Assembly (NCBI GenBank): GCA_021234155.1 | Contig: JAJEKV010000040.1 | Span: 5,109,229-5,173,228 of the forward strand | Direction: 5' to 3' | From: Isoetes taiwanensis | Taxonomy: Eukaryota > Streptophyta > Lycopodiopsida > Isoetales > Isoetaceae | DNA length: 64,000 bases | In this document: positions 36,801 through 60,702 of the stretch, in pieces | How positions within the stretch are numbered: the stretch's first letter is position 1 | How the letters are laid out: each line of letters begins with the position of its first letter | The notes under the pieces: model-generated | Seen by the model: the letters and a program-made list of their open reading frames with translations, nothing else | The model's database searches: none | Told to the model about the DNA's origin: nothing | Made by a program: the position numbers and the translations under genes

Positions 36801-39800
36801 CAGATCCTCCAGTCCAGACTCCCTCAAATTGTGCGTCTCTCAAGGACGACAACATACCAGCTAGGGCTCTCATGCTAAATATGAAGGCTAAAACAAGGTA
36901 TCAAAATAGGCATGAAAACTGAACATGACTTATTTGTAACCAACAAGTACACACGTTGGAGGAGAGGGAGAGATGAAAAGCAATATACAATGGATAATAG
37001 GGAAAGAAAGGAATAATTTGCCATATAAATTTAATGAAACTAATATGAGGATACAAGATGATACGTGGAGAATGCTAGAAGGAGGTTGGTAGGTATGTAA
37101 GTGGGTATTGACCAAACAAGAATGTACTGATTAAAAAATTCAATCTTCAAATGTGCTCTCTTGCATAAAGAAATAGTTAGTTAGAACTTAGAGGGTTTAG
37201 AAACGTACATTTTCTTCCTTTGGGCCTTATGTTTGCTTTTTACCCTTTTACTTTTTTTCATTGATTGGTCATCTTAAAAAAGCACACACACAATTTGTAT
37301 TCAAATCATTTTGGACAAACCAATTAAGTACGTAAATGGTATCACTGTTGTTTCTCATCTAGTACAAAAATGTGTAGTTTTATTTGAATGGTTTGAACTT
37401 TCTTTCTTTAGTTGATTTCATAGTTACAAATTTTTAACGAACAATGTCAATCAGGTTTTTAGGGAGTAATAATTTGACTGGTGAACTTCCTAAAGAACTT
37501 CAAAAGCTCAAAGACCTAACATATCTGTAAGTACAAGTTTTTCTATAAGCAAAAGAATCATATCATTTACTAGTTCTTATTGATATGTTCATAGGGACCT
37601 TTCATATAACCGACTATCTGGATCAATTCCTATATGGCTCAGTAATCGTATCATATATATGTATGCACATACTTAAAACTTATTGTTCTATTTAGTCATG
37701 AAATATAGCTATCATAATTTTGACTTTTATCCAGGAACTTAAACTCGAACTTAAACTGGAACTTGTTCGACATCTCAAGTTCCACAAGGCAAGTCTAATG
37801 ATTTACCTTGATAGGTAGAAAAGTGGATCTATTATCTTATTCTCATTTTCTCTTTGTAAGGCTTCCTGCAACATTATTCAACTGTCTTGATTCAAAATCC
37901 CCTTGCACCAGAGCAACAACTGGCAAGAGTAAGGACATGGTGTAGATTATATGAAAAACATTTATTTTTTAATAATTATATGAATGTATACAGATGTTAA
38001 ATTTAAAATCAATTGTGGAGGCAAACAACTCAATTCATATGATGATGATTCACGTACCTTGTCAACTTCCTTGGAATATGCAAATGTTATTATACATTCA
38101 AGTAAAAAATGGGCGATGAGCACAACCGGCTATATTTCTGATAGTGATCATGATGCATATTATCTTTTGAAGGGCGTAGATGCCACTATTGATGTTTCAA
38201 ATCTTCCACATGGGTCTACTTTTGAAATTTATCAAACATCACGAGGTTCCCCCATGTCATTGAGGTATTTTGGTCTTGACATGGTGAATGGTAACTATTC
38301 TTTAGAGCTACACTTTGCAGAAATTGAAATAAGTGCGAACAATTCCGAGTGGCAAAGCATTGGCAAGCGCCTTTTTGATATTTATATTCAGGTACATGCT
38401 AGTACTAAATTTAGACCATAGTTGTTTCTTTTACTATGATAAAAAATTTAGACTTAGTTGTTTCTTTTGCGATGATTAAAATTTACAGTTAGATGGTTTC
38501 ATGGACTCTTGGTCTTCTTGCACATTAAGAAATTTATTCTATTCTATTCTATGTTTATTAGTAAGACCTCTTGTGTGTAATTCCAATAGAAGTTAAAGAG
38601 CAAATAATATATCTTTTTTTCTTGTGCTGCATACATGTGTCTCTTTTTCCTTTTGTTTCTTTGAACTTAGACTTAATTAATTGTTTCTTTTACCAAGTAT
38701 CTCTTGTGCGTAAATCCAATAAAAGATGAAGAGCAACTAATATATCTCTGTTTCTTATGCTTAGCATGTGTCATTTTTTTTTGTAGAAGGCATCATGCTT
38801 TATTTAAGAAGAAGTCAAGAACAAAATCTCGGAGGATAAGCAAGACCTATTGAGTGAAGCAACCTACCAATGCAACCTATTGAGTGAAGCAACCTATTCT
38901 TCACTGTCCTAACTTTTGAACCTTCAAAATTCACAAAATGCATTATATACATCATGTTCAATCCACTCCCAATACTTTTAAAATTTCGATTGGAAAACCA
39001 TGAAGACTTGGATATTTTTCTTTCTCCAAGAGGTTAGCAATAGAATCCAGGTCAACTATAGTGATATTTGTCCCCAAAGGTGAGCGTTGCTCTACTGAAA
39101 CAAATATAACACATTTTAGTCAACACAACAGACTGTATATTCTTTTGAAAAAGGTAAGTGCTGTCTAGCAAAGAATGAGGCAAAATGATTGTGAAGGCCA
39201 TGCATTAGCTGCTTTAAGCCAGAGACCTCTGAGCCTTTAGGCTTTTCTTTCAAGATTGCATACATGTATCATGTATGCCTTTCCACATCTACATTGTAAT
39301 ACGGGCAAAAGTATGCTGGTGGGGTGCAAAAGCACGCGTCCGGACGCATGCTTTTAGCACCCCTGCTGGAAAGTGCTGAAAACTGCTGGAAAGTGCTGGG
39401 TGCAAAGTGCTGGAAAGTGCTGGGTGCTGGAAAGTGCTGGAAAGTGCTGGGTGCTGGGTGCTGCGTCGCGTTTATTTGTAACCCACCAGCATACTTTTGC
39501 CCATACGCCTATTTAGACACCATGTTGTGAAGAACGACAGAAGAACCCACTAATGAAGCTTACTTTTGAGAAAGTCAAGCAAATGGAAATAAAAACAACT
39601 TCCAATAGTAGATGCCCCTTTGGTATTGGCCCCTAGATTAGCATCAATAAAGGTGGTAAGAGCAGAAGGTTCTTGAGGAGCATAAAGGATCCTAAAGGTG
39701 TTGTTGCATGCTATATCACCTTTTCTCCCCCCTAAGTATTTTATGAGCTATAGCTGAGATCTATAGATGTCCAAAAAAGTCTTTTTCTGCAATATCAAAG

Positions 39801-42800: not shown

Positions 42801-45800
42801 AGAGTCCAATTGATCTATATGTTGTAGATACCACATCAAGCTTTTTTTATGGTCCTAGCCAAATTCACCTTACATTGCATGCCCAAACCTGACCAAACCT
42901 AAGTTCATGTAGAGCCCAAAGAAGACAATTATTCTTAATCGCCCAATTGATCTACTTAGATGTAGACACCATACCAACCTCCTCCTCCACATGATATACT
43001 CTTAGGCCTACTATATTTTTTGCTTTTGCACTTCATATAATCGTAATAATATATTTGATAAGTTTACTTTTTAATAATAATATAGTTGGCTTTATTTTTA
43101 TTTTTATTTTTATTTTTTTTGCATTCTCTTTCAAAAATGTATTCTATAATGGCCTCAACCTTTATGCTTCCTTTTCTAGGGAAAAATGTTCCGCAAAGAT
43201 TTTGACATTGTAAAGGAGGCAAAAGGATCTTTTAAGGCTCTGGTGATAAGACAACAGGCTGTCCAAGTAACAAATGGAGTCCTAGAAGTTCATCTTAAAT
43301 GGTCAGAACGTGGCACAAGTGCTGTTCCCATATTGCAGACATTTGGACCTCGAATTTCAGCAATTGTTGTCATACCTGGTACGGACAATATTTTAGCTCC
43401 ATCTTGGAACAAGTATATTTCCTTAGTCAACTAGGTATTCTAGATAATATCTACTATAGTCAAAATAATGCAATAAAGATAACTTGAGGGTCTTAAAGCA
43501 AAATTGATATTCTTGTGCAACCTTACTTTTGAAAGAACATTTACTCAAAACCATTTCATGCTGACAGAATCATGTTATCAGAAAAAGAAAAGGATGAATA
43601 GGGAAACAAGATCCTGTGGTCCTGGTCTGGAATGCACATGGAATAAACAAGACTAAAGTACAAGCTACAATAGATGCATGGAACACAACTGAGATAATCC
43701 TTTTTGTGAAACACAGAAACACCAATCGAATGGTTTACCATAGTTAGAGGGATATGCACACCTAAACTCAATTTGGAATTTTCAAAGATCCAGGCATGGT
43801 GAGAGACTTTGTGGAAATTGGGATTTACATGCGAGCTAATCTCACACATAACATGCAGTAGAATTGAAGCATACCAATTTGCGACATATCTGGATTAAAA
43901 TACAAGGAGGTGACAAAACGGCCTATATTGGAGTCAGTTACTACACTCCACTCAACATGCCTTTATATCATCATATTGGGTCTTCATGAGATAGTCCATT
44001 GCATACACTAAGTATGCAAGCACTGAAATTATAGGATAGGGAAGAGAGAATAATTTTTGAAGACTTCAATACACGAACTAGAGGGTAAGAGACAATCTCT
44101 TACATCAAGGATGAATATGTAGCAAAATAACAAGGGGTTCCAGAGGGATTTGATATGGATATAATTCCTGAAACCATAGGCCATATCCCTAAAACAATTC
44201 AATGGGTTATTATAAAAAAAATATATAGATTTAAGATAAAAAATAATCATGTTAGCTCACTAGTTAGATTAGTTAAAGTAGTCTTATTAGGGCATTGAGT
44301 TATTTTGGTAGAGGTTCGAGCTCCTATATTTCATATTCTAAAACCTTAAGCGAAGCCATATAGAGGCTCGATATACCATCAAAACCTTAGGCAAACTCGT
44401 ATTTGACATCTTAAAATCATAGGCGCGCCCAATCATAAATGAGCATAAGCGAAATGAGAGGTGCCCAGAGGCTCCAACATACAGTCTGGGCCGTAGGCCA
44501 GGGTTCACCTCGTTTAGAAATGAGAGGTGCCCAGAGGCTCCAAAATACAGTCTGGGCCGTAGGCCAAGGTTCATCTCCCAATCATAAATGAGCATAAGCG
44601 AAATGAGAGGTGCCCAGAGACTCCAACATACAGTCTGGGCCGTAGGCCAGGGTTCACCTCGTTTAGAAATGAGAGGTGCCCAGAGGCTCCAAAATACAGT
44701 CTGGGCCGTAGGTCAAGGTTCATCTCATTAGAAATATGTAGCAAAATAACAAGGGGTTCCAGAAGGATTTGATATGGATTTAATTCCTGAAACCAAGGCC
44801 ATATCCCTAAAACAATTCAATGGGATATTATAAAAAAAATATAGATTTAAGATAAAAATAATCATGTTAGCTCACTGGTTAGATTGATTAAAGTAGTCTT
44901 ATTAGGACATTGAGTTATTTTGGTAGAGGTTCGAGCTCCCGTATTTCATATTCTAAAACCTTAAGCGAAGCCGTATAGAGGCTCGATATACCATCAAAAC
45001 ATTAGGCAAACTCGTATTTGATATCTTAAAATCATAGGCTTCCCAATCATAAAATGAGCAAGGTCAGTAGGATTGATGATCCCATGGGCCGGGTAGTTCA
45101 GGGTTCACCTCGTTTAGAATATTATTCATAGAAAGAATTAAAGGATCTAGAATTCAAAAGGAAACCAATGGACAAGACGGATATGGGTAATTTTTTCCTT
45201 GAATTTGGTAGTTGGTGTGGTCTTAAAATCATGAATGAAATCCCTTGGTTCCCATCATGAAGTGGTTCGATATGCTTCTCTTGGAATGGAGAAAGTATAA
45301 TGGACTATCTTCTTGCCCCTGATAAATCGATTTGGCCACAAACTTTCAAGTGCTAGATACGCCCCAAATAATCCGATCATTCGCCCATTTTATTCCTAGA
45401 TGCTTTCTAGTATGATGTTATTAGATGCAAAGAATTCTTTTGGAATGACTAAGAAGATGAGGAAGGGTCCACAAAATCAAGGTGGGATGAAGAGTGTACT
45501 CAGGCAAGGGTCTTGCTTGGCAAAGGTTGCAAAATTAAACTAACGTGGTATAAGAAGTTGATTAGGAAAAACAAAAGAGAATATCAGAAAAACATGCAAA
45601 TAATCTATCCATCAATGACAAAACAATCTGGAATCATTTTGGACACGCCTTCAATGAGGAAGATAATGTTTCGTTGAATACAAATGATTTGTCTTTTTCA
45701 TGATTCTTCATTTGAAGCACTTGCCAATTTCCACCATAAGTATTTTCTATCAAAAATCAAGTCATGCTTGCCTAAAACGATATCTATGGTTTCAAGCCAT

Positions 45801-48800
45801 AGCACGAGATAGTGGTTGATTTTTATTGTCCATTAAACAAGAAAATTGAATTGAATTGAATTGTTTTTTTGAAGACTAAATGGTTAACGAAGTCCAACAC
45901 AAGAAGGGCATATATGCCCATTGTCCATTAAACAAGAAAATTGAGTTGAATTGAATTGTTTTCTAATGTCCATAAAGACTAAATGGTCAAGGAAGTCCAA
46001 CACAAGAAGGGCATATATGGCCATTACTATGCAAGATTTAAACAACCACCCCCTCCCTCCCCTCAAAACCACCAAACGAACGGCCTTCAAAGGAAAATTT
46101 TAACATTTGTAAGCTTATTGATAAATATGTATAGAGAATGACTTCAATGTGGGCACAAACTGACCCCATAGATCAAATCTCAATGATATAAGATGCTAGT
46201 ACCATTTTCAAGTGACAAAGAAAAGCACATATAGTGGCTGAGTCTAATAAACCAACATCTTTGCTCGATATTTGCCAATGCTAGACATACTTGAAGAGTG
46301 TGATCCTCACATTCAATCACAACACCAAAGAAATCTTATTTTCGCTTAGTTTGCATCGTGCATCAATTCTGAGATGATATCCCTTCATAGATTCATGTGC
46401 TAATAGGTAAAGCTTTTGAATCATGAACTAGCATAAGTTTAATATCTCTTTTGTAATTTCATGTCTTAACCATCTCCATAGCATCTCAAATCTTACTAAG
46501 AAAGCATGCATCCAAGTATTGCTTCAAACGATTCAAGTCCACATCATTGTTCACTTTTATACATGCATACTTCTACATACATGTTCCATCTAGAAAGCCA
46601 CCCCTCGATGTTTCTTTTCTAACATGACTGTAGATCCATGGCCATTTGTATACAAGGTTTCAAAGTTTTATATTTCAGATTCAGACCACCTTTTGACAAT
46701 AAAGTATAGGGTGTTATATTCCACTATATTGCAAAGCAAGAAATCTCGTCTCTGTAGGAGGATAGGATATGGGGATGTGGACTTAACCGCAAGAGCTCAA
46801 ATCAAGAAGAGTTTCTGAACATGCTCCAAATCCTCCCATGTGTGAAGTGATCTCACAAGACCCTATACTTCTACATTGTAAAGAAGAACTGGTCCAACGA
46901 GCATCTAAAATGATGGGGGCAATCTCATAGAGCCGGGCTTGATGGTAATTATTCTGCATATCATACAAAACCTTCCAATCCACAATGATCCTTTCTCAAA
47001 TACGTACATCCAAATGCGTACCAAGATACTTGTACTTTTGCACCACCTCACTGTTTAACCCTGATATGTGAACTGTGATGCCCTTTGCTACCTAGAGGAG
47101 GAAATGACTAGAATCTTGGTTTTGACTAAGTTGACTCACATACCAGTATTCTAGGAAAAACTACTAAGGGCACCCAGATCTTGTTTCATATTGATAGGGA
47201 TATGCACTAAAAGATCCACATCATCTGCATACAACAACTCATGATACAATGAGCAAGTCTTGTCCCTCCACACCTCCTAGTTCGGCAATCCAATCTCCAA
47301 GCTAGGCAATGTATAACTGAAACAGTGTTGGAAAGATGTTCTAACGAGCATGATATTTTCATACGATAGAGCTGATTTCTTGAACACAACTCTATATTAC
47401 AATAATGAAATGATATATAAATTGAAATAATAATACTCTAGTAAATATAACCATTGCATGCTCAAGACAAAGAGCGTTTACATGCTTTCTTACGTGTAAG
47501 ATCTTCTAACATCGGAATAAATTCTTTCTCTGAAGTACTTTCAAATCTCAAATTGTCTTTTACACGAAACTAAGCCATATTTGTTATTCTTGCATTTAAT
47601 GGCATAGTTTCGTATAATTTGATGCCAAAATGCAATGCAAATCAGGCTCTATGAGTTTCTATAATTAAAACATTGCAAAATTTTGAAGATAATTCAACAG
47701 CTTGTGCTTGTGGCCAATGTGTTGAAACTATTGAACACTGCTTCTTCTTGTGCAATCATCTACGTCTTGCTTGGGCATGGTTGTTCACTCTTTTCAGTGT
47801 GTCTCTCACTAGCCAGGAGATCCTACTTGCACTTTATCCCATGTTGGCCTAACTTGCATAAGCGAGCATTTCATCTTGCTTCTAGTTGAATTTTATGATC
47901 TATCTGGAAGATGCGACGTTTGTGTATTTTCCAAGATGCACACATCTCTGATCACCAGCTTCTTCATTGTGCTCAGCAGAAGATCACACAAGCTTATTGT
48001 TACTCATCTCTAGCTGATGATAAAAAAGAGATCATTTGGCAAATGTATTTACGGTGTTCCTCTTATGCATAGACGGGTGTTTGTGCCTAGTTGGGTCAGC
48101 CTATCCACTAGGGTTTTATTCTTGTTTGTGCATTATGTATTGCGCCTTTCTGTCAATAAAAAGAGTCTCACGTCCAAAAAACGTTGTGCTTGTTTAGATA
48201 TATCAAATTTGGTACAAAAATGTGGTGCATTTGAGCTTGATCATACTCTTCATCATTCTTATAACCTCTGAATTCTTTGCGGCACAGCATGTTGGATCAT
48301 GCACAATCTCACAAGAGTTTCTTTCATCATAAGATAATCGAACATCTTGCGCTTGTTCAACTTTATTCAATTTAATGCCAAAACATGGTGCAATTGAGGT
48401 TGCTTGCTTGTATCTTCCGGGGTCTTTTTTGGCTCCCGAAATCGGGGTCCCCCGCGCCCGAAAATCGCTTAAGCAATTTTGGGGATGAAAATCGCTTAAG
48501 CGATTTTCCCGCCTGAAAAGGGCCCGCCGGAAAAGGCCCCGCCCTGCAAAAGAAAAAAAAAATAAAAAAAAACAGCTCACGCTGGCCGCACGGGCCTGGC
48601 CGCACGCACGGGCTGCTGTGGAGCAATCGTTTTTCCGGGACCATACCCAAAGAATTGGGCGACTGTGAATCATTAGAAACAATAGATCTCTCTTACAATA
48701 GATTTTCGGGGCAGATACCACCGGAATTGGGCAGATTGAAATCGCTGGAAGAGCTTTTTATCAGCGAAAACAGTCTGACAGGCCCATTACCGCCAGAATT

Positions 48801-51443
48801 TGGGAATTGGAGCAGCATGAGGAATTTGGATCTAGACACGAACGCTTTAACAGGATCAATTCCTGCGGAATTTGGGCTGATGACCACGCTGAAAACTTTG
48901 CATCTGTGGGACAATCAACTGAGTGGGCCGATTCCGGCAAGTCTAGGCAATTGCACAGAGCTGGAGGTGTTGGATCTTTCTGTGAATCATCTGAGCGGAA
49001 GAATCCTGACAGAGCTCTTCCGTCTGCCCAAGTTGGACAGGTTACTATTGCTCATCAATAGTCTAACATGTGAGAATTTCTGTAATGCATGAATCTGTGA
49101 TGGGGTATATATTATAATCATATTATTCTCACGTACAATTTGACAGGTGAGCTTTCGGTTGATCTAGGCAAAACCACAAAACTGTCGAGGCTGAGATTGA
49201 ATAACAACCTGCTGGAGGGTCCAATTCCAAGCAATCTGGGATTGCTGCACAATCTGAGCTTCTACAGGCGAAAATCGCTTAAGCGATTTTGCCCCTTTTT
49301 TTTTTAAAAATCACCTGGCCAGACGCTGACTTTTGAAAGCGATTTTCGTTTTTTTTTTTAAAAAATCACCTGGCCAGGTGATCGCATTTTCCAGCGACGA
49401 AAAACGAAAATCGCTTAAGCGATTTTCACTTTCCCCTTTTTGAAAATCGCTTAAGGGATTTTCGCAAAATTTGAAAATCGCTTAAGCGATTTTCCCAAAA
49501 TCGCTTAAGCGATTTTGGTCCGCGCGAGACCCCGATTTCGGGAGCCAAAAAAGGCACCGTGTATCTTCCTTATGCTTATAATCTTGCAGGGCTTCTTCGA
49601 TGCAAAGCATGGTGGACCTAAATGACAAAGCAAGAAGATTATATCAAATAAAGGAAGAACATAAAAATTCCTAAAAATGGAAGAAGGAATATAGAATAAA
49701 TTTTTTCTAATTTAGGCAAACTCTTCTTCATTCTAGAAACATCTAAGGTCATTTCATTAACACTTTGTGATGTGGCAGAGTCCAATTCAACTATCCCATA
49801 TGGAAAGATACTCGGCATTAGCGTAGCTGTCTTAGGAGCATTTATTCTCATTTGCTTAACTACTTTCTTACTTTGGAGAAGGCATAAGAAGTTAATGCTT
49901 GTCAAAGAAGCAAAAAATCAAGGCAAGATTCCTTATGTTAAATGTATGGATTTAAGCTATTAGATGCTAAATTCTTTTGTTTTAAATTCAGATTTCGAGA
50001 GTATAAAAAATAAGCCAAAGATGTTTACTTATAATGAACTAAAAGCTGCTACAAAGGGGTTTCATCAGCAAAATAAACTTGGTGAAGGGGGGTACGGTGT
50101 GGTTTATAAGGTATCAAAATAAATGGAGAATTTATATCTGACTTAAAGATATTAATCCATTTAATGTTGGTATAATATGTATAGATCATTTGTATAACAT
50201 AGTACTGTACATAATTTTCAGTTTGGTTTGATTGCTTGGCCTTCAGCCCTAGTTTCATTTATGCCCTTGTCCATGCTTTGTATCATCTTGTCGCCTTCTT
50301 TGGGCTTCGTGCATGTTAAATTTTTTTTATCCTAATCTCTCATGGATGTTAAAGATGCTCATTTCTTTTTGTTCCAGGGAATCTTGCCAGATGGCACCGT
50401 CGTAGCTGTTAAAAAATTATCAACAAAATTAGATAGGGGGTTGGCATCATCAGAATCAAATAAACAAGAGTTTATGAATGAAATATCTGTGATATCAACA
50501 GTTAAACACCGTAATTTGGTGAAACTCCTTGGATGCTGCATCGAAGGGGATCACAGAATTTTGGTCCTGGAATTCCTAGAAAACAATAGCCTTCAACAAA
50601 CATTGCTTGGTATTATTGTAACTTTTTTTATTTTCTTTTTTCTTGTTTAATATTTGAATATGTTGTAGGTCCATCTAAGTTATACATAGATTGGCCAACG
50701 CGATACAACATATGTGTGGAAATTGCAATCGGCATTGCTTATTTGCACGAAGAATCACTTCCTAGAATAATTCATCGTGATATCAAAGCTAGTAATATAC
50801 TCTTAGACAAAATGTTACGTCCAAAGATTGCAGATTTTGGGATAGCAAAACTTTTCGGAGATGAACAAACCCATATTAGCACTAAAATAGTTGGAACACT
50901 GTAAGTTTACCCGAGAAGTAAATGTATCTTCTTGATTATTAAGTATCTCTAATAGCATTGTATTGTGTCGGGATCAAAGTGGCTATTTATCTCCAGAATA
51001 TGCAACACGTGGCCAACTCACAGAAAAGCTAGATGTTTATAGTTTTGGAGTGCTTGCATTGGAGATAATTAGTGGCCTGAACAATCTTGATTTATCCGTA
51101 CCACCAGACAAGATTTATCTATTGGAATGGGTGAGTGTTACCATCTTCATGCCTTTTATCTAGAGTACATTAATGGCATGGGTGATTCTTACGAGATTTT
51201 AAATTATAGGTAATGCAACTAAACAAGGTAAACTCGTTTTTCAAGTGATTGACCCCATTCTCGAATCAATATGTGAAAGAAGAAGCCATGGCAATTATTG
51301 AGGTCACCATCCTTTGCATACAAGCTTCTCCCAACAAACGTCCCATGATGTCAAAGGTTGTTAATATGCTTACTAGACCTAACAAAATTACATGTTCTAT
51401 CAATCAGGATTTTATCTTTCCTTTTGGTCTCAGTGGACAATAA
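24818..51443 (+). CDS. LRR-VIII type receptor-like kinase, 5' exons missing
   Basis: Fifteen exons rebuild about 728 residues of a plasma-membrane receptor kinase: five full LRRs and a partial one, a Cys-containing linker, a malectin-like domain, one membrane helix and a Ser/Thr kinase with [16 protein letters not shown] and a GYLSPEY activation-loop motif. This order, and LRRs on separate 72-nt phase-2 exons, are typical of land-plant LRR-VIII kinases (AT1G53430 group). That family is usually near 1000 residues, so a signal peptide and the first LRRs are missing on the left; no exon for them was found between 1 and 24817. Every junction given has GT-AG or GC-AG ends and fitting phase. The last exon carries a frameshift that stops the frame at 51246-51248; copy 2 at 58623 is intact there. 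Ligand and pathway cannot be told. Confidence 0.85.
24963..25034 (+). CDS. Receptor kinase exon: LRR b (72 nt)
   Basis: Acceptor GAGCAG, donor GTATGA. It encodes [18 protein letters not shown] and ANLTYL, matching the family's FRDC/LRNC repeat. Phase 2 on both sides. Confidence 0.9.
25103..25174 (+). CDS. Receptor kinase exon: LRR c (72 nt)
   Basis: Acceptor GTTCAG, donor GTAAGC. It encodes [18 protein letters not shown] and TRLKHL, a canonical plant LRR. It is followed by an intron of 12.28 kb. Confidence 0.92.
25175..26690. other. Intron sequence, AT-rich, unassigned
   Basis: The first part of the 12.28-kb intron has no coding signal. It includes an (ATAAG)n run at 25772-25790, T-rich runs at about 26188-26219, and a region near 26290-26470 with the same phrase style (GTATACGTAT, leading CCCC) as 16860-16980. 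Confidence 0.6.
25772..25790 (+). repeat. (ATAAG)n pentanucleotide run
   Basis: Nearly four ATAAG units follow 'GGGTCTTGTGAC'. This resembles the GGTCTC...plus pentanucleotide layout at the tails of the family B elements, so it may mark the 3' end of another retroposon. Confidence 0.5.
26691..26713 (-). repeat. (TTCTA)n tail, minus-strand retroposon end
   Basis: GAATAGAATAGAATAGAATA on the plus strand is TTCTA on the minus strand. It suggests a minus-strand retroposon whose body lies to the right, from 26714 on. Confidence 0.5.
26714..27826 (-). other. Unassigned; possible body of a minus-strand retroposon
   Basis: Minus-strand open frames at 26792-26995 (67 codons) and 27259-27585 (108 codons, Cys- and aromatic-rich) have no recognisable domain. 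The (TTCTA)n tail on their 3' side makes a retroposon possible, but no reverse-transcriptase motif is seen. Confidence 0.35.
27827..30120 (-). other. Decayed element of unknown class
   Basis: On the minus strand, long stretches translate to Lys/Glu/Arg-rich, gag-like text with stops. A short frame at 29905-30117 starts [17 protein letters not shown] and has [16 protein letters not shown]. The phrase TCTTTATTTGT(T)GGCATTGA occurs at both ends (27827-27846 and 30101-30120), so the block may be bounded by short direct repeats. No named domain can be supported. Confidence 0.35.
30121..30763. other. AT-rich intron sequence
   Basis: No coding or repeat signal is convincing. Small plus-strand frames at 30217-30493 are Phe/Leu-rich and probably spurious. 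Confidence 0.5.
30764..32345 (+). repeat. Polypurine repeat element, copy 1 (about 1.44-kb tract)
   Basis: A head (30764-30905) with TTATACCATATGTC and ATCGGACGGTTGAGA leads into 30906-32345, where the plus strand is almost only A and G (GGGAAAAGGGAAAA variants). Open frames of 249-382 codons on the minus strand are pure Phe/Ser/Pro/Leu products of the tract and are not genes. Copies 2-4 are at 34846, 51836 and 59250. Confidence 0.85.
32430..34838 (-). mobile_element. L1-type LINE fragment, 5' truncated
   Basis: A T-run on the plus strand (32430-32439) marks the poly(A) end of a minus-strand element. Coding pieces of ORF2 fill the rest up to about 34800, where it stops next to the head of polypurine copy 2. 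About 2.4 kb of an expected 6 kb remains. Confidence 0.75.
32501..34798 (-). pseudogene. L1-type ORF2 remnant (reverse transcriptase, zinc motif)
   Basis: The 5' piece reads [20 protein letters not shown] then [20 protein letters not shown], the finger part of an L1 reverse transcriptase. Further on, [13 protein letters not shown] replaces YADD (Tyr-Ala-Asp-Asp reads Phe-Ala-Asn-Asp), so the catalytic motif is altered. Near 32850 ETCPLCGG is the start of the C-terminal zinc motif. The piece between the finger and FAND is shortened. Many frame changes are present. Confidence 0.75.
34846..35650 (+). repeat. Polypurine repeat element, copy 2, two tracts
   Basis: The head (34846-34967) with TGTTATACCGTCTTGGATCA and GAATGGTCAAGATCAT precedes a purine tract at 34968-35475. 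A partial second head (GAGATCATTTGATAGCATCC) at about 35473-35527 precedes a second tract that reaches 35650, where the 3' end of the family B LINE copy B begins. Confidence 0.8.
35628..36880 (-). mobile_element. Non-LTR family B, copy B, 5' truncated
   Basis: The 3' end on the minus strand (TGTACAGCGTGCCAGCATAC then TTATTACTGC) matches the end of copy A at 23075-23115. It joins the purine tract directly, so it probably inserted there. Only the last ~1.25 kb is kept, as is usual for 5'-truncated LINE insertions. Confidence 0.8.
35786..36760 (-). pseudogene. Family B ORF2 C-terminal part (thumb, zinc motif)
   Basis: This is the best preserved C-terminus of the family in the window. It reads [11 protein letters not shown] (36697), then after a stop at 36461 a 185-codon frame from 36343 to 35786 with [26 protein letters not shown], and [19 protein letters not shown], a C-C-C-H-C zinc-type motif. 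Corresponding text is found in copies A and C. Only one stop and one frame change interrupt it. Confidence 0.75.
36881..37454. other. Intron sequence, unassigned
   Basis: AT-rich sequence up to the acceptor before the exon at 37455. No coding or element signal is seen. A pyrimidine-rich stretch precedes the acceptor. Confidence 0.6.
37455..37526 (+). CDS. Receptor kinase exon: LRR d (72 nt)
   Basis: Acceptor CAATCAG, donor GTAAGT. Encodes [18 protein letters not shown] and KDLTYL. Its 5' phase joins exactly to exon 25103-25174 across the 12.28-kb intron. Confidence 0.92.
37595..37660 (+). CDS. Receptor kinase exon: LRR e (66 nt)
   Basis: Acceptor TTCATAG, donor GTATGC. Encodes [17 protein letters not shown] then RIIYM; two residues shorter than a standard repeat. 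Confidence 0.9.
37735..37788 (+). CDS. Receptor kinase exon: LRR tail (54 nt), GC donor
   Basis: Acceptor TATCCAG. Encodes [17 protein letters not shown], with N-rich text like the last LRR of this family. The donor is AG|GCAAGT, a consensus GC-AG donor, and only this cut keeps the frame with the next exon. Confidence 0.8.
37861..37928 (+). CDS. Receptor kinase exon: Cys linker (68 nt)
   Basis: Acceptor TTTGTAAG, donor GTAAGG. Encodes [20 protein letters not shown] then GK. The two Cys residues match the cysteine pair that follows the LRRs in LRR-VIII kinases. Ends in phase 1. Confidence 0.8.
37994..38391 (+). CDS. Receptor kinase exon: malectin-like domain, part 1
   Basis: Acceptor TATACAG, donor GTACAT. 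It opens with [11 protein letters not shown] (the INCGG hallmark), and continues through [35 protein letters not shown], and RLFDIYIQ, all diagnostic of plant malectin-like domains, which bind cell-wall carbohydrate in animals and probably in plants. Ends in phase 0. Confidence 0.93.
38392..38773. other. Intron sequence with (TTCTA)n run
   Basis: AT-rich. A TTCTA run at 38534-38552 follows 'ACTCTTGGTCTTCTTGCACATTA', again resembling a retroposon tail. Repeated 'TTAGTTGTTTCTTTT' phrases occur near 38415-38475 and 38675. Confidence 0.5.
39303..39502. mobile_element. 200-bp MITE with 21-bp TIRs and GTGCTGGAAA core
   Basis: Bases 39303-39322 (GGGCAAAAGTATGCTGGTGG) are inverted at the right end, and the match runs 21 bp. 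ATAC directly flanks both ends (39299-39302 and 39503-39506), a 4-bp candidate target duplication. The inside holds a near-perfect 28-bp palindrome (39328-39355, core GCGTCCGGACGC) and then a minisatellite of GTGCTGG and GTGCTGGAAA units (39364-39465). The superfamily is unknown. Confidence 0.85.
40690..41360. other. GC-rich insertion with CTCTTCCGGCAGCTC repeats
   Basis: This block is far richer in GC than its surroundings. It has at least four copies of 'CTTCCGGCAGCTC' or close variants (about 40915-40990), repeats of 'CCTAAGATCC', and 'GCCTCGAGCAAACCC' twice (41040 and 41205). It interrupts the LINE coding echo, so it is an insertion. The bases ACGTTTATCT on the left and ACGTTATCT on the right could be an imperfect target duplication. 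No coding frame is convincing. Confidence 0.5.
42003..42251 (+). pseudogene. Cytochrome P450 N-terminal fragment
   Basis: The frame has a hydrophobic helix ([15 protein letters not shown]), a short basic-polar linker and [19 protein letters not shown], the proline-rich hinge of microsomal P450s, then [13 protein letters not shown]. The usual 'GN' after WPIL reads WK. Homology ends near FTLN and the frame soon stops. No other P450 exon (I-helix, ExxR, Cys ligand) is nearby, so this is a lone fragment, perhaps carried in by a transposon. It lies in the 4.8-kb intron of the receptor kinase, on the same strand. Confidence 0.8.
42252..43179. other. Intron sequence with spaced CAATTGATCTA repeats
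   Basis: The phrase CAATTGATCTA followed within ~20 bases by 'AGATACCACATCAA' or a close variant recurs near 42664, 42805 and 42945 (about 140-bp spacing), with a weaker copy near 42545. A (TTTTTA)n run at about 43093-43122 lies in front of the acceptor of the next exon. Confidence 0.5.
43180..43378 (+). CDS. Receptor kinase exon: malectin-like domain, part 2
   Basis: Acceptor TTTCTAG, donor GTACGG. Encodes [20 protein letters not shown] then [21 protein letters not shown], and [11 protein letters not shown], the C-terminal half of the malectin-like fold. Phase 0 at the start, phase 1 at the end, which matches the TM exon. Confidence 0.93.
44115..45060 (+). repeat. Direct duplication (619-bp offset) with SINE head in each copy
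   Basis: Sequence from AGCAAAATAACAAGGGGTTC is found at 44121 and again at 44740, about 95% alike over some 320 bases. Each copy has a tRNA-type A-box (TAGCTCACTAGTTAGATTAG, 44253) and B-box (GAGGTTCGAGCTCC, 44311), then 'TTAAGCGAAGCC' and 'GCTCGATATACCATCAAAAC'. The space between the copies is filled by the tandem block at 44452-44731. Confidence 0.75.
44452..44731. repeat. Four-unit tandem repeat in two dimers (66 + 83 bp)
   Basis: Units start AAATGAGAGGTGCCCAGAG at 44452, 44518, 44601 and 44667. Units 1 and 3 end in CACCTCGTTTAG, units 2 and 4 in GTTCATCTC, so the array is a duplicated dimer with a 149-bp period. The 66-bp unit also contains CAGTCTGGGCCGTAGGCC. Confidence 0.9.
45825..46022. 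repeat. 95-bp tandem duplication with (TTGAA)n run
   Basis: ATTGTCCATTAAACAAG starts at 45825 and at 45920. Each copy has AAAATTGAATTGAATTGAAT or a close variant, then GACTAAATGGT and AAGTCCAACACAAGAAGGGC. Identity is high with small indels. Confidence 0.85.
46100..47390 (-). pseudogene. Non-LTR family B, copy C (reverse transcriptase to C-terminus)
   Basis: On the minus strand YADDVDLL lies at about 47210-47231, followed by [20 protein letters not shown] (about 46983; compare [19 protein letters not shown] in copy B), [13 protein letters not shown], and further left a [19 protein letters not shown] echo near 46540. Stops and frame changes are many. The 3' end is not sharply defined. Confidence 0.7.
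47641..48178 (+). pseudogene. L1-type LINE 3' fragment (C-terminal zinc motif)
   Basis: The plus strand encodes [20 protein letters not shown] (about 47695-47754), the Cys/His motif at the C-terminus of plant L1 ORF2, followed by [16 protein letters not shown] run CTGTCAATAAAAAG near 48150 suits a LINE 3' end. The rest of the element is absent. Confidence 0.7.
48419..49559 (+). mobile_element. Pack-MULE-like transposon carrying an LRR gene fragment
   Basis: The element is 1141 bp. A perfect 26-bp inverted repeat (48424-48449 and 49528-49553, core GGCTCCCGAAATCGGGGTC) lies 5-6 bases inside its ends. The flanks carry a 10-bp direct repeat, TGTATCTTCC (48409-48418 and 49560-49569). Repeats of 9-11 bp with long TIRs point to the Mutator superfamily. 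There is no transposase; instead 48619-49266 is a piece of an LRR gene. Both subterminal regions hold palindromes AAAATCGCTTAAGCGATTTT. It sits 220 bases before the transmembrane exon of the receptor kinase, on the same strand, in its 6.4-kb intron. Confidence 0.88.
48619..49266 (+). pseudogene. Captured LRR-kinase ectodomain fragment
   Basis: About seven LRRs in one frame from near 48625: [114 protein letters not shown]. The frame stops at 49090-49092, but LRR text resumes after an AG at about 49145 with [13 protein letters not shown] and [10 protein letters not shown]. The gap begins GTGAGA and ends TTGACAG, so an intron was probably captured too. The 24-residue repeats look like the CLAVATA1/LRR-XI style, not the 72-nt-exon LRR-VIII style of the host gene. 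No start, signal peptide or kinase is included. Confidence 0.85.
49779..49922 (+). CDS. Receptor kinase exon: transmembrane segment
   Basis: Acceptor GTGGCAG. After [10 protein letters not shown] comes a helix [20 protein letters not shown] then LLWRRHKK, a stop-transfer sequence. The donor is either CAAG|GCAAGA (49923, GC type) or T|GTATGG (about 49946); both keep phase 1. The GC cut gives the shorter juxtamembrane part. Confidence 0.82.
49992..50110 (+). CDS. Receptor kinase exon: juxtamembrane and glycine loop
   Basis: Acceptor AATTCAG, donor GTATCA. Encodes [19 protein letters not shown] then [10 protein letters not shown], the ATP-binding glycine loop GxGxxG. This exon is not part of the downstream duplicate. 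Confidence 0.93.
50221..50323 (-). mobile_element. Copia pol sliver in receptor kinase intron
   Basis: On the minus strand these 103 bases encode [20 protein letters not shown] and on, the same linker as in the Copia remnant at 57633-57735. It sits between exon 49992-50110 and exon 50378-50609. It is the shared sequence at the duplication junction. Confidence 0.8.
50378..50609 (+). CDS. Receptor kinase exon: kinase N-lobe
   Basis: Acceptor GTTCCAG, donor GTATTA. Encodes [15 protein letters not shown] with the catalytic Lys, then [12 protein letters not shown] with the alpha-C Glu, and [20 protein letters not shown]. Confidence 0.93.
50669..50900 (+). CDS. Receptor kinase exon: catalytic loop and DFG
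   Basis: Acceptor GTTGTAG, donor GTAAGT. Encodes [34 protein letters not shown] (RD-type catalytic loop) and [12 protein letters not shown]. Confidence 0.95.
50980..51130 (+). CDS. Receptor kinase exon: activation segment, C-lobe
   Basis: The acceptor is ATCAAAG, and the joined codons give [33 protein letters not shown] follows. Donor GTGAGT, phase 0. Confidence 0.92.
51210..51443 (+). CDS. Receptor kinase last exon, frameshifted in copy 1
   Basis: Acceptor TTATAG. After VMQLNKVNS the frame shifts and meets TGA at 51246-51248. In the next frame [32 protein letters not shown] (with the conserved subdomain XI Arg) run to TAA at 51441-51443. Copy 2 reads the same exon without a break. The base changes here (AACTCGTTTTTC against AACTCTGTTCTTC) are of the CTG type seen elsewhere in copy 1, so the frameshift may be a sequence error. 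Confidence 0.85.
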
Positions 51444-51835
51444 AAATGCATTCTATTCTATTTTATTCTATTCTATCTATCAACTTATAAAGCGCCTTGA
51501 ATATTGATTGTAAATTGACTTGTAATAAATTTGAAATTCATATATGCTTACCTTAACAATATCGTGATCCAAAGAACTAGAATGCCAGTGTTTATGGGCC
51601 TTTTTATTTTATCATATTAGGGTATGTTATCAGGCAAGACTTGATCAATGGGAATTTGTACTGCGAAATTTATTGTATGCTACATTATGCGCAATGAATG
51701 TTGTAATTATTTGATAGAGATATGGATAAGATCTGCATATGAACTCAACTATAATATATAATAACAATATATCAAAGTTAAGACAATGAAAAATCAAAGG
51801 GTTTGTTGGACTCTTCTATAATATCATCTTCTTTA
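51444..51835 (+). other. 3' flank with polyadenylation-like signals and (TTCTA)n run
   Basis: AATAAA-type hexamers occur at the stop codon (about 51439) and near 51525. A TTCTA/TTTTA run at 51450-51476 follows GGTCTCAGTGGACAATAAAA, which resembles the tail of LINE copy A (GGTCTCATTGGTCTAAAAAA). Confidence 0.5.
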
Positions 51836-52500
51836 TATTATAATGTTATACCATAGGTCTTGGATTGGATCAATCCCTAATTCGAATGGTCGAGATCATC
51901 TAGATGCATCCAAAGGGCGAGATTTCTCACAAAATTTCCTACCACCATAATTGGTCATGTTTTGATCTTTTATGGGGAAAGGGTAAAGGAAAAGAAGAAG
52001 AAAGGAAAAGGGAGGAGGAAAGAGAGAACATGAAAGGACAAAAAGGCATGGGGAAAGGGAAAAAAGAGAAAGAGAAAAGGATGGGGATAAGAGAAGAGAA
52101 AAATGCATAGGAAAAAAGAAAGGAAAGGAAAAGAAAAAATCAAAAGGGAGCGGGAAAGGAAATCTGAGAAAAGGGCACAAGAAAAAGGGGAAGAGGTAAA
52201 GAGGAAATGGTGTAGGAAAAAAGGGAAGAGTTATGGAAAGGGTGAAGAATGGAAAAATGAAGGGAAAAAAAGAGCATAGGAAAAGGAAAGGGGAAAAGAG
52301 CATGGGAAAAAGCAGAAAAAGAGAAACGGTGGGGAAAGAAAAAAAGGGAAGAAAAAAATGGCATGGAAAAGGAGGGGAGAGAGGGAAGGAGAAGGGAAAA
52401 GTTGCACCGAGAAATGGAAAAGAGTGAAAGGTTGGGAAAATGAGGAAAAGGGCAGGTAAAAGGGGGAACAAGAAAAGGATGAGGAAATCTGGATGTTTGA
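51836..52500 (+). repeat. Polypurine repeat element, copy 3
   Basis: The head (51836-51975) has ATAATGTTATACCATAGGTC, TTGGATTGGATCAA and CGAATGGTCGAGATCATCTA. The purine tract covers about 51975-52500. Long minus-strand frames over it are low-complexity products. Copy 4 is its duplicate. Confidence 0.85.
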
Positions 52501-52576
52501 AATCTTTAGCAGCAAGAGAAGAATGAATCCGGCTTTTTGGAAGGCAGATCTGGTGATAAAAAGTATGCACGCTTGA

Positions 52577-53285
52577 TTCCATCAACCATATCGACCTTCT
52601 CCTCACTGCAAAGATGGGTTCAAGCTCAGGCACTCTTCTCAGAACTGTTGCAGCCTAAAGAATGGGGTTTATAGAATCACAATTGACGAACTGAGAAAAA
52701 GAGCCAACAAGAACCAAAACCTTTGTTCTGACGCCGGCTGGAGCAAGGTCTCCCTAAAGGTGGTAGATAAATGGACTGAAACTTTCCCTCCAGAAGCCGA
52801 AGAATGGTATAAGGATTTCAAGTTCTATACTGAATGCACCCTGCCTGATGTAGTGGTCTCCCTGGAGAATATAAAATGCAAGTACCGTGATACCGTAGGC
52901 CCCTTTGTCACCCAATGGATGCAAAGATCACGCATAAAAAAATAATTTTTTATTCCGTAAGATGTGTCACTCTATACTTGTCCCAACCGCTATGAACTCA
53001 AAAAGAACCTCGCGATCGATTCAAAGACATGGATCAACCCCATATCTTCTCCTCCGATTTAGCATGGATAATAGTTCTAAGTTTGGATTTCGTGGCCTCC
53101 AAATATCCCACGCCTTTTTGCATGAAATCGGCTTGGTTCAAATATCCCACAAGATTTTTTAAACCATTGACATAAAAACTTTCAACCATGGCACTATTGT
53201 AGAATATATTAACTCCCTTTCAACCTTGAAACTAGTCTCATATGTTGCCATCACAATTTTAAACCATTGTAATCTTCAATTAAGT
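52577..53285 (+). pseudogene. Cys-rich unknown reading frame, damaged copy
   Basis: Identical to the frame at 59988-60476 up to about 52885 (KWTETFPPEAEEWYKDF is present), then several small substitutions and indels break the frame, with a stop at 52943-52945. The part from 52946 to 53285 has no open frame and leads to the TIR element. See the intact copy for the description. Confidence 0.6.
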
Positions 53286-53287
53286 TA

Positions 53288-55921
53288 CCCTTAACACTAG
53301 AGTTGTTCCGGGACCATTTTCGGGTCCATGGACCGTAAATGGTCCACCATACCCCCGCCACTTAAACCGATATATCTCACAAGTCAAATTTTAATTTTAA
53401 AATATAACACCACTATTTGAGTCTTCACTTGATTCTTAACAACCTGTGAGAATTTCATGACCATTGGATTCACCTTTATATTGGTATGATTGTTCAAACT
53501 TTGAAGAATTTGGCAGTTTTTACAGCATTCTAGAACTGCATTCTAGAACTGCATTCTTCAATTTTCTAGCATAAAAGTGTCTAAACCTTGCGAAATATGA
53601 AATTAATTGATATATTATAATAAAACACATCAATTTGCATGTTTCCATGTTTTGCCGCTATCATTTGATATCAATTGAAGTCGCCAAACCCTATTTTGCT
53701 TAAAAATGTTGCATGAGGTTCAAGAATTATTTCTCTCTTATTATTGCAAGTTTTGACTTAATTTTTGTGACAATGAGTCCTTAACTAGGCAACCTATAGT
53801 TCAAAGAATTTTTTTTATGTTTATATGTTTTATTAGTATCGTTATTAACTAAAGAAATTATTGTACAGAATTCAAAATAAAAATATGTGTTAAAGTGCTT
53901 CAATAAACCCCATCTATAAGTCTCATAAGGATAGTAAATGATGCATTCTAATTAACTCTATGTAGGAATTTACTTTATCAACATAAATATAGTGTAACTA
54001 GGGTATAACCATGCATTATCTAGATCTAAACAAGCTCTAATATAATAGGATGAACACAAAGAAAGGTTCCAAAGTGCACTGATTACACCTTTATAGGTCT
54101 AATACTCAACAATAATGTAGGTAGTGATAGTTATTGATGAATAGAAGACAATATCACGAAGTTTAGCCATGACTATAAATAAATAGATCAAAAGACTTTC
54201 CGTACCTGTTTTTCTAGTTCATCTAAAATATTGACTTATTGCACTATATTTCTTCCATAAGCCTTTTAAATGGCACAATATATGATAAAAGGGGATATTG
54301 AGATCCTTGTTGTGGTCTTATTAAAAAAAAATGAAGAAACCTACTTACTTTCCACTATTATAAAGTTAGACAATGTGTGGCTGCTCCAAAATGTTGTAGT
54401 CTAAGTAGGACCATAGTACATGTAGATCAACTTTTATGATAGGCTATAAATTTTGTAAATTTGAACCTTTGTTGGCAATATATATCTCAAATTTCATGTT
54501 AGAATAATATATTATATACAAGATTTGAATATAAATAAGCATGGACTATTTATAGGTTCAGGATTAAACCAACCGGATTGAGTATTTATTTGCATTGGCT
54601 CTATTCATTTTGTTCCCTACAATAATATTATGATTTCTCATCGTCTATAAGATAATCTTTGAAAGGTGTAAGTGGACTTTCTCATACATTCAAAGTAGCC
54701 TTTAACTACTTAATTTTTGTGCTCCGATATCACCTTTTAGATAGACAATCCTCCCTAATCAACCAATGTTATCATATATAATATGATATAAACTATATTC
54801 TAAAGAATTGATTAAGATGATGATGTTCTTGACTTTTAAATGAGAGGCCATGTGGACCAATAATTGGCATCGGCACAGCAGTCTATCTTGATCTTCTTTA
54901 GTCATACCTTTTCATATTTTTCCTTGGTTCATTTTGCATTGTTATCTTAACTTTGGGAAGCTTTGAAATATGGTGCTTGAAGTTCATTTTCAAGGCACAA
55001 ATCTAGAGATCAAATATGGAAAATATTTGATGATAACTTGGAACTAACACTAAAAGTTTTAGCCCAAACCTAGCAATAGATATTTTTTATTGATAGAGGA
55101 TCTCATGAAATACTAATATCCTAAAATTCGGCTTGAGATCCAATAAGGTAAAGAAGTTATTGATTTAAAATGAACATGTGGACCAATAATGGTCTTATGT
55201 ACAGAAACCTTTATTGATTTATCATGATCGTGCCTTTTGCTCTTTTTCTTTACTTGTTTTTTCATTGGTTTCATATCCATACAAGCATTCATATATGATT
55301 TTTTTAATGACATACTGTTTCAATAAATTTCCTTCAGATATAACAAAATAGACATCAATTAAAAGCTACTTAAAATTGTTACTATAAGTTAAAGCTGAAG
55401 CTTCAAATTACAGGCCAACAAATATTTTTTATGCATGGAACAATTAGTCAACTACTTATATACCAAATTTGACGTAAAAAAATCATTTTCATGCAAAAGT
55501 TATTGAATTTTAATTGAAACAGCCTTCTGGGAACCATTATCGGTCCACATAAGACAGAAAACTGTTTTGACCCTGTCATGTTTGACTGACTATATCTTCC
55601 TTTCTAGACTTCGGATTGGAACAAGGTTTTTTGTGCACTAATCCTTATCTCGTATAGAAAAATACCATTATAATGAAAAAAATCAAAAAAATCCTTTTAT
55701 TGAGACAGTTTTACATTATGTAAACATGAAGCAAACTGGACTTGACCCCCCTTGATTCACCTAAACATAACTTTCAATTTTGGGGGTATATGCATTTTTA
55801 ACTATTTTTTTCTGTGCAACATGACTGCCATATATTAACATGTAGAAAGGGTTTAACTGAATTTTATGCCATTGATTTTATATGAATTTTAAAGCGAACT
55901 GGGACAACTCTAGTGTTAAGG
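53288..55921. mobile_element. 2.63-kb TIR element, non-autonomous, copy 1
   Basis: CCTTAACACTAGAGTTGT at 53289-53306 is inverted at 55904-55921. TA lies directly outside each end (53286-53287 and 55922-55923) if the left end keeps one extra C. A palindrome-derived block sits just inside the left end (53311-53346). The inside is AT-rich and has no transposase frame; the only notable frame (55113-55313, minus, Lys/His-rich) looks spurious. The CACTA string in the TIR would suit CACTA elements, but a 3-bp target repeat was not found. The element appears to sit inside the 3' LTR of the Copia remnant. Confidence 0.7.
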
Positions 55922-56082: not shown

Positions 56083-57735
56083 ATGCAATCTTCCTTGCCA
56101 TTATATTGAACTGCTTTTCTCAAGGTCTGAAACCTTCCAAGTGACAATGCTTTGGTTAAGAGGTCTGCCATTTGATCAGCTGGATTAATGTAAGTAAGAT
56201 GAACCAAATGCTTTCCAACCATATCTCGTATAAAGTGAAGTTCCATCTCTATATGCTTACATCTTTCATGTAGAACAGGATTTCTTGACATGGCTATACA
56301 GCTTGTGTTATCACAAAAAATAACAGTAGGTTCAGTCCGTTCTACACCTAATTCAAATAAAGAATCTTCTTTCCCATACTACTTTTTAGTCAATAGAGCT
56401 GCAAAGATTGTATTCTCGCCTCTGCACTAGAAAGGGCTATGCTTCCTTGCTTTTTGCATTTCCAAGCTACAGGGGCACCTCCCATTAGCACAACATATCC
56501 TGAAGTTGACTTCCTTTGGTCTAAATCCCCAACCCAATCAGAGTCACAGTAGGCTTTTAATTGCAACTCATTTGAGTTATATATAATGCCAATATTCAAG
56601 GTTCCTTTTAGATATCTCAAAATCCTTTTTGCAGCTATCCAATGTTCTAAACCAGGGTTATGATTGTACCTGCTTAAGATTTTTACCCCAAAAGCAATAT
56701 CTGGTCTTGTGCAGTTAGCTAGATAAGCCAAGCACCCAATTAGTGATCTGTAGGGTGTGTTCTCCATTTGTTTTTTCTCTTTTTTCTTTTTTGGACACAT
56801 ATGAGCGTAAATTTTGTGCCCCGAACCAAGGGTGTCTCATGCTATATTGCGTACCACTCATGTTAAATTTCTTCAACATATTTAAAATATGAGTTGGGTG
56901 GCTCAAAGTTAGCAAAATTTGTTTTTTTTGCTCTCTATTAACTTCAATACCAAGAAATCTCTTAAGCTCACCCAAATCTGTCATTTGGAAACGTTTGTTG
57001 AGCAATTGTTTACAATGAACCAAGATACCTTTGTTATTTGCAACCATGATATTATCATCAACATATAGAGCTATAATACACCAATTCTTCCCATTCTTAT
57101 ATCTGCACAAATTTCCATCATATTTCAGCTTCTCAAACTCTTGCTCTAAAAGATAATTGTCCATGCATTTGTACCATTCTCGTGGTGCTTTCCTCAAACC
57201 ATAGACTGCCCTATGTAATTTCCAAACTTTACCTTCTTTTTCCTCAAATCCAGGTGCAGGCTTTAAATATATCTCTTCTTCCAACTTAGCATTAAGAAAT
57301 GCAGTACTTACATCCATATGATGAATTTCCATGTCACATGAGTTTGCAATGGCCAGCAACATTCTCAAACTATTAATCTTGACTAGTGGAGAGAATGTTT
57401 CATCAAAATCTAACCCTTTCTTCTGAGTAAATCCTTGTGCTACAAGTCTTGCCTTGAATTTCTTAGTCAATCCATCAATGCCTGGCTTTATTCTAAAAAT
57501 CCATTTATTGCCAACAACATTTTTACCTGATGGTCTATCAACTACAGTATAGGTTTCTGTCCTTTTGAAAGATAGCATCTCGTCCTCCATAGCTTTTTTC
57601 CAGTTTTCAGAATCCTTACTGTTAATAGCTTGGTTTGGTTTGATTGCTTGGCCTTCAGCCCTAGTTTCATTTATGCCCTTGTCCATGCTTTGTATCATCT
57701 TGTCGCCTTCTTTGGGCTTCGTGCATGTTAATTTT
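56067..57735 (-). pseudogene. Ty1/Copia pol remnant: reverse transcriptase and RNase H
   Basis: Reverse transcriptase (57698-56715) begins after the linker with NWKKAMEDEMLSF and has KARLVAQGF, HHMDVSTAFLN, YGLRKAPREWY and the catalytic ALYVDDNIMVA. The frame shifts near 56800, where RSLIGCLAYLANCTRPDIAF starts the connection. RNase H shows AYCDSDWVGDLDQRKSTSGY and LSSAEA, then a second shift near 56400, and ends ADLLTKALSLGRFQ...KGEC at 56067. Gag, protease and integrase are missing: the remnant stops abruptly at about 57735, next to the second set of kinase exons. Confidence 0.9.
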
Positions 57736-57789
57736 TTTTTATCCTAATCTCTCATGGATGTTAAAGATGCTCATTTCTTTTTGTTCCAG

Positions 57790-58859: not shown

Positions 58860-59249
58860 AAATGCATTCTATTCTATTTTATTCTATTCTATCTATCAAC
58901 TTATAAAGCGCCTTGAATATTGATTGTAAATTGACTTGTAATAAATTTGAAATTCATATATGCTTACCTTAACAATATCGTGATCCAAAGAACTAGAATG
59001 CCAGTGTTTATGGGCCTTTTTATTTTATCATATTAGGGTATGTTATCAGGCAAGACTTGATCAATGGGAATTTGTACTGCGAAATTTATTGTATGCTACA
59101 TTATGCGCAATGAATGTTGTAATTATTTGATAGAGATATGGATAAGATCTGCATATGAACTCAACTATAATATATAATAACAATATATCAAAGTTAAGAC
59201 AATGAAAAATCAAAGGGTTTGTTGGACTCTTCTATAATATCATCTTCTT
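58860..59249. other. 3' flank of kinase duplicate
   Basis: Same content as 51444-51835, including the (TTCTA)n run at 58866-58892. Nothing coding. Confidence 0.6.
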
Positions 59250-59912: not shown

Positions 59913-59987
59913 GAAATCTTTAGCAGCAAGAGAAGAATGAATCCGGCTTTTTGGAAGGCAGATCTGGTGATAAAAAGTATGCACGCT

Positions 59988-60476: not shown

Positions 60477-60702
60477 CATGGATAATAGTTCTAAGTTTGG
60501 ATTTCGGTGGCCTCCAAATATCCCACAGTCTTTTTGCATGAAATCGGCTTGGTTCGAAATATCCCACAGTACTTTAAACCATTGACATAAAAACTTTTGA
60601 ACCATGGCACTATTGTAGAATATATTAACTCCCTTTCAACCTTGAAACTAGTCTGCATGTTGCCATCACAATTTTAAACCATTGTAATCTTCAATTAAGT
60701 TA

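Follow-up and report, generated by a model that had tools for sequence, protein, structure and literature searches.

How did a piece of an LRR receptor-kinase gene come to lie within an intron of another receptor-kinase gene of the lycophyte Isoetes taiwanensis, and does it contribute to the protein encoded by its host? Within the window, the 64,000-nucleotide stretch of DNA analysed here, we consider it very probable that positions 48418-49559 are a Pack-MULE, i.e. that an LRR piece was captured by a short element, mobilised by a transposase of the same TIR family encoded elsewhere, and inserted in the host intron. A first-pass annotation had proposed a Pack-MULE from the letters of this locus, and the proposal is now underpinned by a TIR family, 9-bp duplications, a donor gene and an empty site. 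The element itself has the following parts:

48418-49559, plus strand: element of 1,142 bp, very probably a Pack-MULE (non-autonomous Mutator-like element with captured gene fragment), delimited by family-compared ends, 9-bp duplications and the paralogue empty site
48409-48417, no strand: left target-site duplication TGTATCTTC, single copy in empty site L035
49560-49568, no strand: right target-site duplication TGTATCTTC, single copy in empty site L035
48418-48483, plus strand: left terminal inverted repeat including the first subterminal palindrome, 66 nt, pairing with the right arm at 88% complementarity
49494-49559, minus strand: right terminal inverted repeat, the 66-nt arm pairing with 48418-48483
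48461-48507, no strand: two 20-bp subterminal palindromes AAAATCGCTTAAGCGATTTT (48461-48480 and 48488-48507), from a pattern search with up to 3 mismatches
49271-49516, no strand: five further subterminal palindromes (starts 49271, 49407, 49443, 49474 and 49497), from the pattern search

The perfect inverted repeat of 26 bp reported in the first-pass annotation was recovered as the longest exact run (26 nt, ending at 48449), embedded in the 66-nt arms. Such TIRs are short for a classical Mu-type element, which we count against the Pack-MULE explanation. A 10-base match, TGTATCTTCC, is present at both element ends and had originally been described as a 10-bp target duplication next to an element starting at 48419. 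In most of the family members compared, the ends read CGGGGTC...GGCACCG with the duplication outside them; the duplication, present as claimed, is therefore assigned a length of 9 bp and the element a start at 48418, the agreement of the tenth base with the initial C of the element being put down to chance. A target duplication of 9 bp is the Mutator standard. The palindrome AAAATCGCTTAAGCGATTTT occurs in 7 copies (up to 3 mismatches; 5 of them exact) distributed over the two subterminal blocks of the element, and with the same tolerance in no other part of the window. Likewise, the earlier description as a gene fragment devoid of a transposase holds, the best tblastn match of 7 family-member frames to the element having an E value of 2.9. 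To the left of the element, window positions 47968-48181 belong to a different repeat, with 33 of 40 listed matches being copies at 90-92%.

The ends of the element are not peculiar to this locus. In the 1,658,258,908 bases (1,110 contigs) of the genome searched, the 24-base TIR end with at most 1 mismatch was found at 222 places (115 + 107), compared with 0 for the reversed control, and chance can thus be dismissed as the source of this recurrence. For 100 of the 222 places positions were listed, and a family sample of 39 candidates was composed of 38 fetched stretches and the window copy, including one (L001, see below) that represents the same insertion duplicated. Both ends were present in 32 of the 39 candidates, the other 7 lacking a pair of ends, and the 9-bp duplication was exact in 27, carried one mismatch in 4 and three mismatches in 1 (random place pairs as control: 4 of 20,000). 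At least two palindromes were seen in 29 of 30 family elements compared (median 5.5), with palindromes near both ends in 28 of the 30. The genome search for the TIR that the first-pass annotation had recommended has returned a family with recurrent ends and 9-bp duplications. Members are mostly short: 27 of the 30 elements compared measure less than 2 kb, 21 of them with an interior that recurs in at least one other element.

The gene that received the insertion could be delineated as follows:

43180-43378, plus strand: host malectin exon before the intron (Malectin E=3e-8 in frame 43180-43431; start approximate), with the proposed donor after 43378, phase 1
49779-49935, plus strand: host transmembrane exon after the element-bearing intron, from the sequence and the in-frame join; 3' end approximate
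50336-51160, plus strand: host open frames with kinase-domain exons, from Pkinase/PK_Tyr_Ser-Thr matches

Joining 43378 to 49779 generates one open frame through a hydrophobic segment that was read by eye from the sequence; the malectin and kinase parts are assigned by domain match, with a second Malectin match in the upstream frame 37984-38418. The element resides in the 6.4-kb host intron 43379-49778 in sense orientation to the gene, in accord with the original placement in the intron that precedes the transmembrane exon. Malectin domain, membrane segment and kinase agree with the LRR-VIII class named in the first-pass annotation, of which this malectin receptor kinase would be a candidate member. 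Within the window, the stretch with the host kinase exists as a tandem duplicate, 50221-53500 matching 57633-60916 at 97.9% over 3.3 kb.

Empty sites, which had also been put forward as a check, were found in this genome. In the paralogue L035 (C1046:5190753-5191615), the element is missing from this intron and TGTATCTTC stands there only once; two paralogues of greater distance, at C1046:6417460 and 6390471, also lack the element and can be aligned over the junction, with gaps. Given the recurring end repeat with its 9-bp duplications, these empty sites and the donor gene described below, neither of the two refutations named in the first-pass annotation is borne out, as far as this one genome can show. 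In L035 (C1046:5190200-5192200), the acceptor of the transmembrane exon reads CAA instead of CAG, and this host copy may be a pseudogene or may use a shifted acceptor site.

A further copy of the element, at C1046:5097516 (L001, C1046:5096500-5099600), was considered as an independent insertion and rejected as such, since it shares its flanks with the window locus (100% over 451 bp on the left, 97% over 459 bp on the right; 14 differences in 1,012 and 40 in 995 positions, respectively, over longer flanks). Either the host locus was duplicated with the insertion already in it, or the assembly has falsely doubled a single locus. The L001 element differs from the window element at 204 of 1,142 bases, 104 of these differences being no more than 2 nt away from CAG/CTG (55.7 expected). 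For the cargo alone, the proportion is 65 of 92 (32.9 expected), with values for the control motifs of 21 for GAT/ATC (26.5 expected) and 31 for TCA/TGA (26.0 expected); in the flanks, 7 of 14 differences on the left and 15 of 40 on the right are near CAG/CTG. The Isoetes taiwanensis assembly is described as nanopore-based with short-read polishing (PMC8566536), and for this reason the L001 differences are read as probable base-calling errors; methylated cytosines in CHG context, miscalled by nanopore sequencing in a duplicate left unpolished, may account for them. The L001 copy was accordingly left out of dating.

Between the two palindrome blocks lies the cargo:

48612-49263, plus strand: captured LRR receptor-kinase fragment, 652 bp, 97% to C1025:14511410-14512061, ungapped
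48612-49069, plus strand: captured partial exon with open LRR frame, ending at the altered donor context ACAT/GTGAGA
49070-49146, plus strand: captured intron of 77 bp, also in the donor gene
49147-49263, plus strand: captured start of the next exon, from comparison with the donor gene

The LRR character of the cargo is reflected in matches to LRR_1 (E=1.2e-23) and LRR_8 (E=9.4e-18), and the intron that had been suspected from the letters is real, as the donor gene has an intron between two open LRR frames. The search for a parent LRR gene led to C1025 (locus L003), an LRR receptor-kinase gene in which the LRRs extend to both sides of the captured part, followed by the kinase. This gene is represented by a 466-aa frame (LRRNT_2 and LRRs), a 513-aa frame (LRRs and most of the kinase) and a third frame in which the kinase is completed; the captured piece begins inside the 466-aa frame, spans the 77-bp intron and ends inside the 513-aa frame. 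Because the intron is included, genomic DNA was most likely the template of the copy. The cargo recurs in a second element, C1028:12275186-12276341, which is framed by an exact duplication of its own, ATCTTTTTT. The donor gene and the two elements are set apart by 23 substitution differences, 15 of which are common to both elements, 3 restricted to the window copy and 5 to the C1028 copy. As 15 of the 23 are common to both elements, one capture followed by transposition is indicated, and we read this as a long shared history with a recent split of the window and C1028 copies; alternatively, the true source of the cargo would be a diverged allele or a lost paralogue.

The donor gene also bears on a more trivial interpretation, according to which the window element is an ordinary, MITE-like deletion derivative whose interior resembles LRRs by chance. 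The prevalence of family members below 2 kb and the sharing of interiors among them would be compatible with this idea, but the interior matches a receptor-kinase gene at 97%, intron included, and element bases 117-850 find no match (E 1e-8) in six long family loci. With the donor gene at hand, we regard the chance interior as refuted and its residual probability as negligible.

What, then, would the captured LRRs do in the intron of a receptor gene? The first-pass annotation had envisaged that splicing could add foreign LRRs to the host ectodomain. Such exonisation, by which captured LRR exons would enter host transcripts and alter the receptor ectodomain, could draw on the sense orientation, on a 191-codon open frame that includes LRRs, and on the fact that the captured intron and the host intron are both phase 1. 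Against it stands the reading of the junctions. In three cargo copies (window, C1028 and C1046:5097 kb), the last exon base before the captured donor is changed from G to T, and as the base preceding the donor is T rather than the G of the donor gene, splicing from the captured donor to the exon at 49779 reads ACA-TAG, an immediate stop. The alternative route from the host donor at 43378 to the captured acceptor reads LRRs in frame and then meets a stop at 49305-49307, inside the element. Both paths, built in silico on the captured splice sites only, hence terminate prematurely, contrary to the original expectation. Moreover, the captured piece starts mid-exon and consequently brings no native acceptor before the larger LRR block, its donor has lost the G at position -1, and the comparison with the donor gene (8 synonymous versus 7 non-synonymous changes in the first exon, 1 versus 1 in the second) gives, in these small numbers, no sign of strong constraint. 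A hybrid receptor with foreign LRRs is probably not made, and we consider exonisation of the element very unlikely. As judged from the sequence, the most likely protein-level role of the cargo is none; we infer that it is a gene fragment carried as a passenger in the intron.

An effect at the RNA level is another matter. Small RNAs derived from the element might act on the C1025 donor gene, the LRR cargo thereby serving as a silencing trigger. The identity of 97% over 652 bp between cargo and donor would permit this, captured sequences in maize are described as siRNA reservoirs (PMC13317346), and the enrichment of differences at cargo CWG sites in the C1046:5097 kb copy is compatible with CHG methylation. 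The same differences could, however, be true divergence, and the CAG/CTG enrichment recurs in the L001 flanks, there with far fewer differences. We therefore treat silencing of the donor gene by the element as possible, yet rather improbable, and retain the intronic passenger as the preferred reading of the cargo.

A non-autonomous element calls for a source of transposase, and candidate frames were taken from six family loci: three elements of about 5 kb (L004-L006), L038, L039 and L040, with L039 and L040 having one TIR each in the fetched stretch. Ten frames were scanned with Pfam. PF21056 (ZSWIM1/3 RNaseH-like) matched 2 of them above cut-off, and below cut-off there were 3 matches to PF10551 (MULE) and 1 to SWIM; both PF21056-matching frames are among the three that match PF10551. 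L038 holds a family element of 2,962 bp that is flanked by a duplication of its own; its 217-aa frame, a ZSWIM/MULE-type transposase fragment, scores 30.3 bits with PF21056 (cut-off 27.2) and 19.8 bits with PF10551 (cut-off 27.6). A frame in L039 behaves in the same way, PF21056 above and PF10551 below cut-off, and L006 has its PF10551 and SWIM matches, both below cut-off, on two frames arranged in the order expected. The remaining 6 of the 10 frames matched no transposase model in Pfam; they comprise those of L004, L005 and L040, another L039 frame, and one lying outside the element in L038. L005 nonetheless contains a relative of the L006 frame (C996:1017233). An intact transposase was not seen among the frames from the six family loci.

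The fragments are linked to the TIRs by their positions as well. The L006 frame has 150 listed relatives; of the first 50, 7 are no more than 8 kb away from a TIR place among the 100 listed, where about 0.05 would be expected. These 7 include the place of the query itself and two that share a locus, which leaves 5 other independent loci. In the control, run against 110 places, none of the first 50 PF10551 matches lay within 8 kb. This co-location suggests a tie between the TIR family and a Mutator-like transposase. We infer that a functional transposase of the family drove mobilisation. In this scenario, 652 bp of genomic DNA from an LRR receptor-kinase gene, with exon, intron and exon, would have been acquired by a short Mutator-like element and come to lie between its subterminal palindrome blocks. 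The TIR family would then have supplied, from another locus, the transposase that set the element in motion, and insertion into the malectin receptor-kinase intron would have produced the 9-bp duplication.

Capture by this family appears not to be confined to the LRR piece. For 4 of 7 interiors searched in the genome a donor locus was found, with neither TIR nor palindrome in the fetched donor stretches. L027 carries a piece of an MFS transporter (PF07690, E=2.6e-14), also present in L041 and as diverged copies in L045 and L046. Its donor L042 (89.6%) has a 460-aa frame with a whole MFS_1 domain (E=1.6e-49), L047 has a 232-aa MFS frame, and the fetched stretches of both L042 and L047 are free of palindrome and TIR. 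L008 and an element in L050 have their interior in common; that of L008 matches L052 at 96.7%, where a 334-aa frame (cut by the stretch end) scores above cut-off for Myb DNA-binding (E=8.8e-7) and neither TIR nor palindrome occurs in the fetched stretch. Other matches to L008 are on C1089 and C1025. The cargo of L021 matches C907:10002519-10003155 at 94-99% in two blocks; this source locus (C907/C1043) is a putative gene at most, and a 124-aa frame beside it found no match in Pfam. Retro-capture by L021 was considered and discarded, as the missing 86 bp lack GT-AG ends.

For the other 3 of the 7 interiors (L026, L023 and L019), the genome search gave no clear donor: the only match to L026 is another element copy, L023 is found in three element copies and in matches of 79% or less, and L019 has scattered matches, the longest at no more than 84%, with up to 89% over 62 bases. 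Retro-capture was dismissed for L026 too, since the C1039 locus is another element copy, reaching the subterminal part with two palindromes, that is split by an insert. This insert (C1039:14021601-14035262, L043/L044) is 13.7 kb long, has inverted ends CATTAGGGCGGATTTGGGGTCTGAAAATGGC and is a different, unclassified DNA transposon.

The donors point, if tentatively, to a lycophyte MULE lineage that has repeatedly transduplicated host genes (a receptor kinase, an MFS transporter, a Myb-like gene and another locus), although we would put this at somewhat less than an even chance. If true, MULE-mediated gene capture would characterise vascular plants as a whole, and here it could possibly have been aided by the arrays of 20-bp palindromes acting as hairpin or template-switch sites. 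For a vascular plant that reproduces by spores, a case combining donor, empty site and sister copy would extend the range over which transposons are known to capture genes. With its regular subterminal palindromes, the family lends itself to studying how capture happens.

Earlier descriptions of Pack-MULEs come from flowering plants, with rice, maize, Arabidopsis and tomato as established cases (PMC3310237, PMC8903248). The view that they are known mainly from grasses, voiced in the first-pass annotation, is only partly right, as a table in PMC3310237 lists 46 Pack-MULEs in Arabidopsis and 220 in tomato. Genomic fragments with exons and intron are a stated trait of Pack-MULEs (PMC4717578). In a 2026 gene-capture review (PMC13317346), none of the words lycophyte, fern and moss occurs, and in the open-access literature retrieved for lycophytes, Selaginella and Isoetes, we found no report of a Pack-MULE in lycophytes.

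The window element is thus a known kind of transposon, a Pack-MULE, in a new lineage, and not a new kind. Gene capture by Helitrons or retrocopies likewise moves pieces of host genes around the genome, but the window element has TIRs and a 9-bp duplication and has kept its intron, the latter arguing against an mRNA source of the cargo. MULE-derived MITEs are short family members with the same TIRs for which no donor is found; the window copy, in contrast, contains a recognisable host gene fragment assigned to a donor. Like the Pack-MULEs of rice, maize, tomato and Arabidopsis, it is non-autonomous, bounded by TIRs, about 1 kb long and loaded with an exon and intron fragment, with the donor gene kept, several copies of one cargo and a 9-bp duplication. 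It differs from the angiosperm Pack-MULEs in its lycophyte genome, its TIRs of about 66 bp and its arrays of a 20-bp palindrome, and the Isoetes family differs from them in its transposase fragments, for which the ZSWIM-type RNaseH-like model gives scores above cut-off and the Pfam MULE model only scores below.
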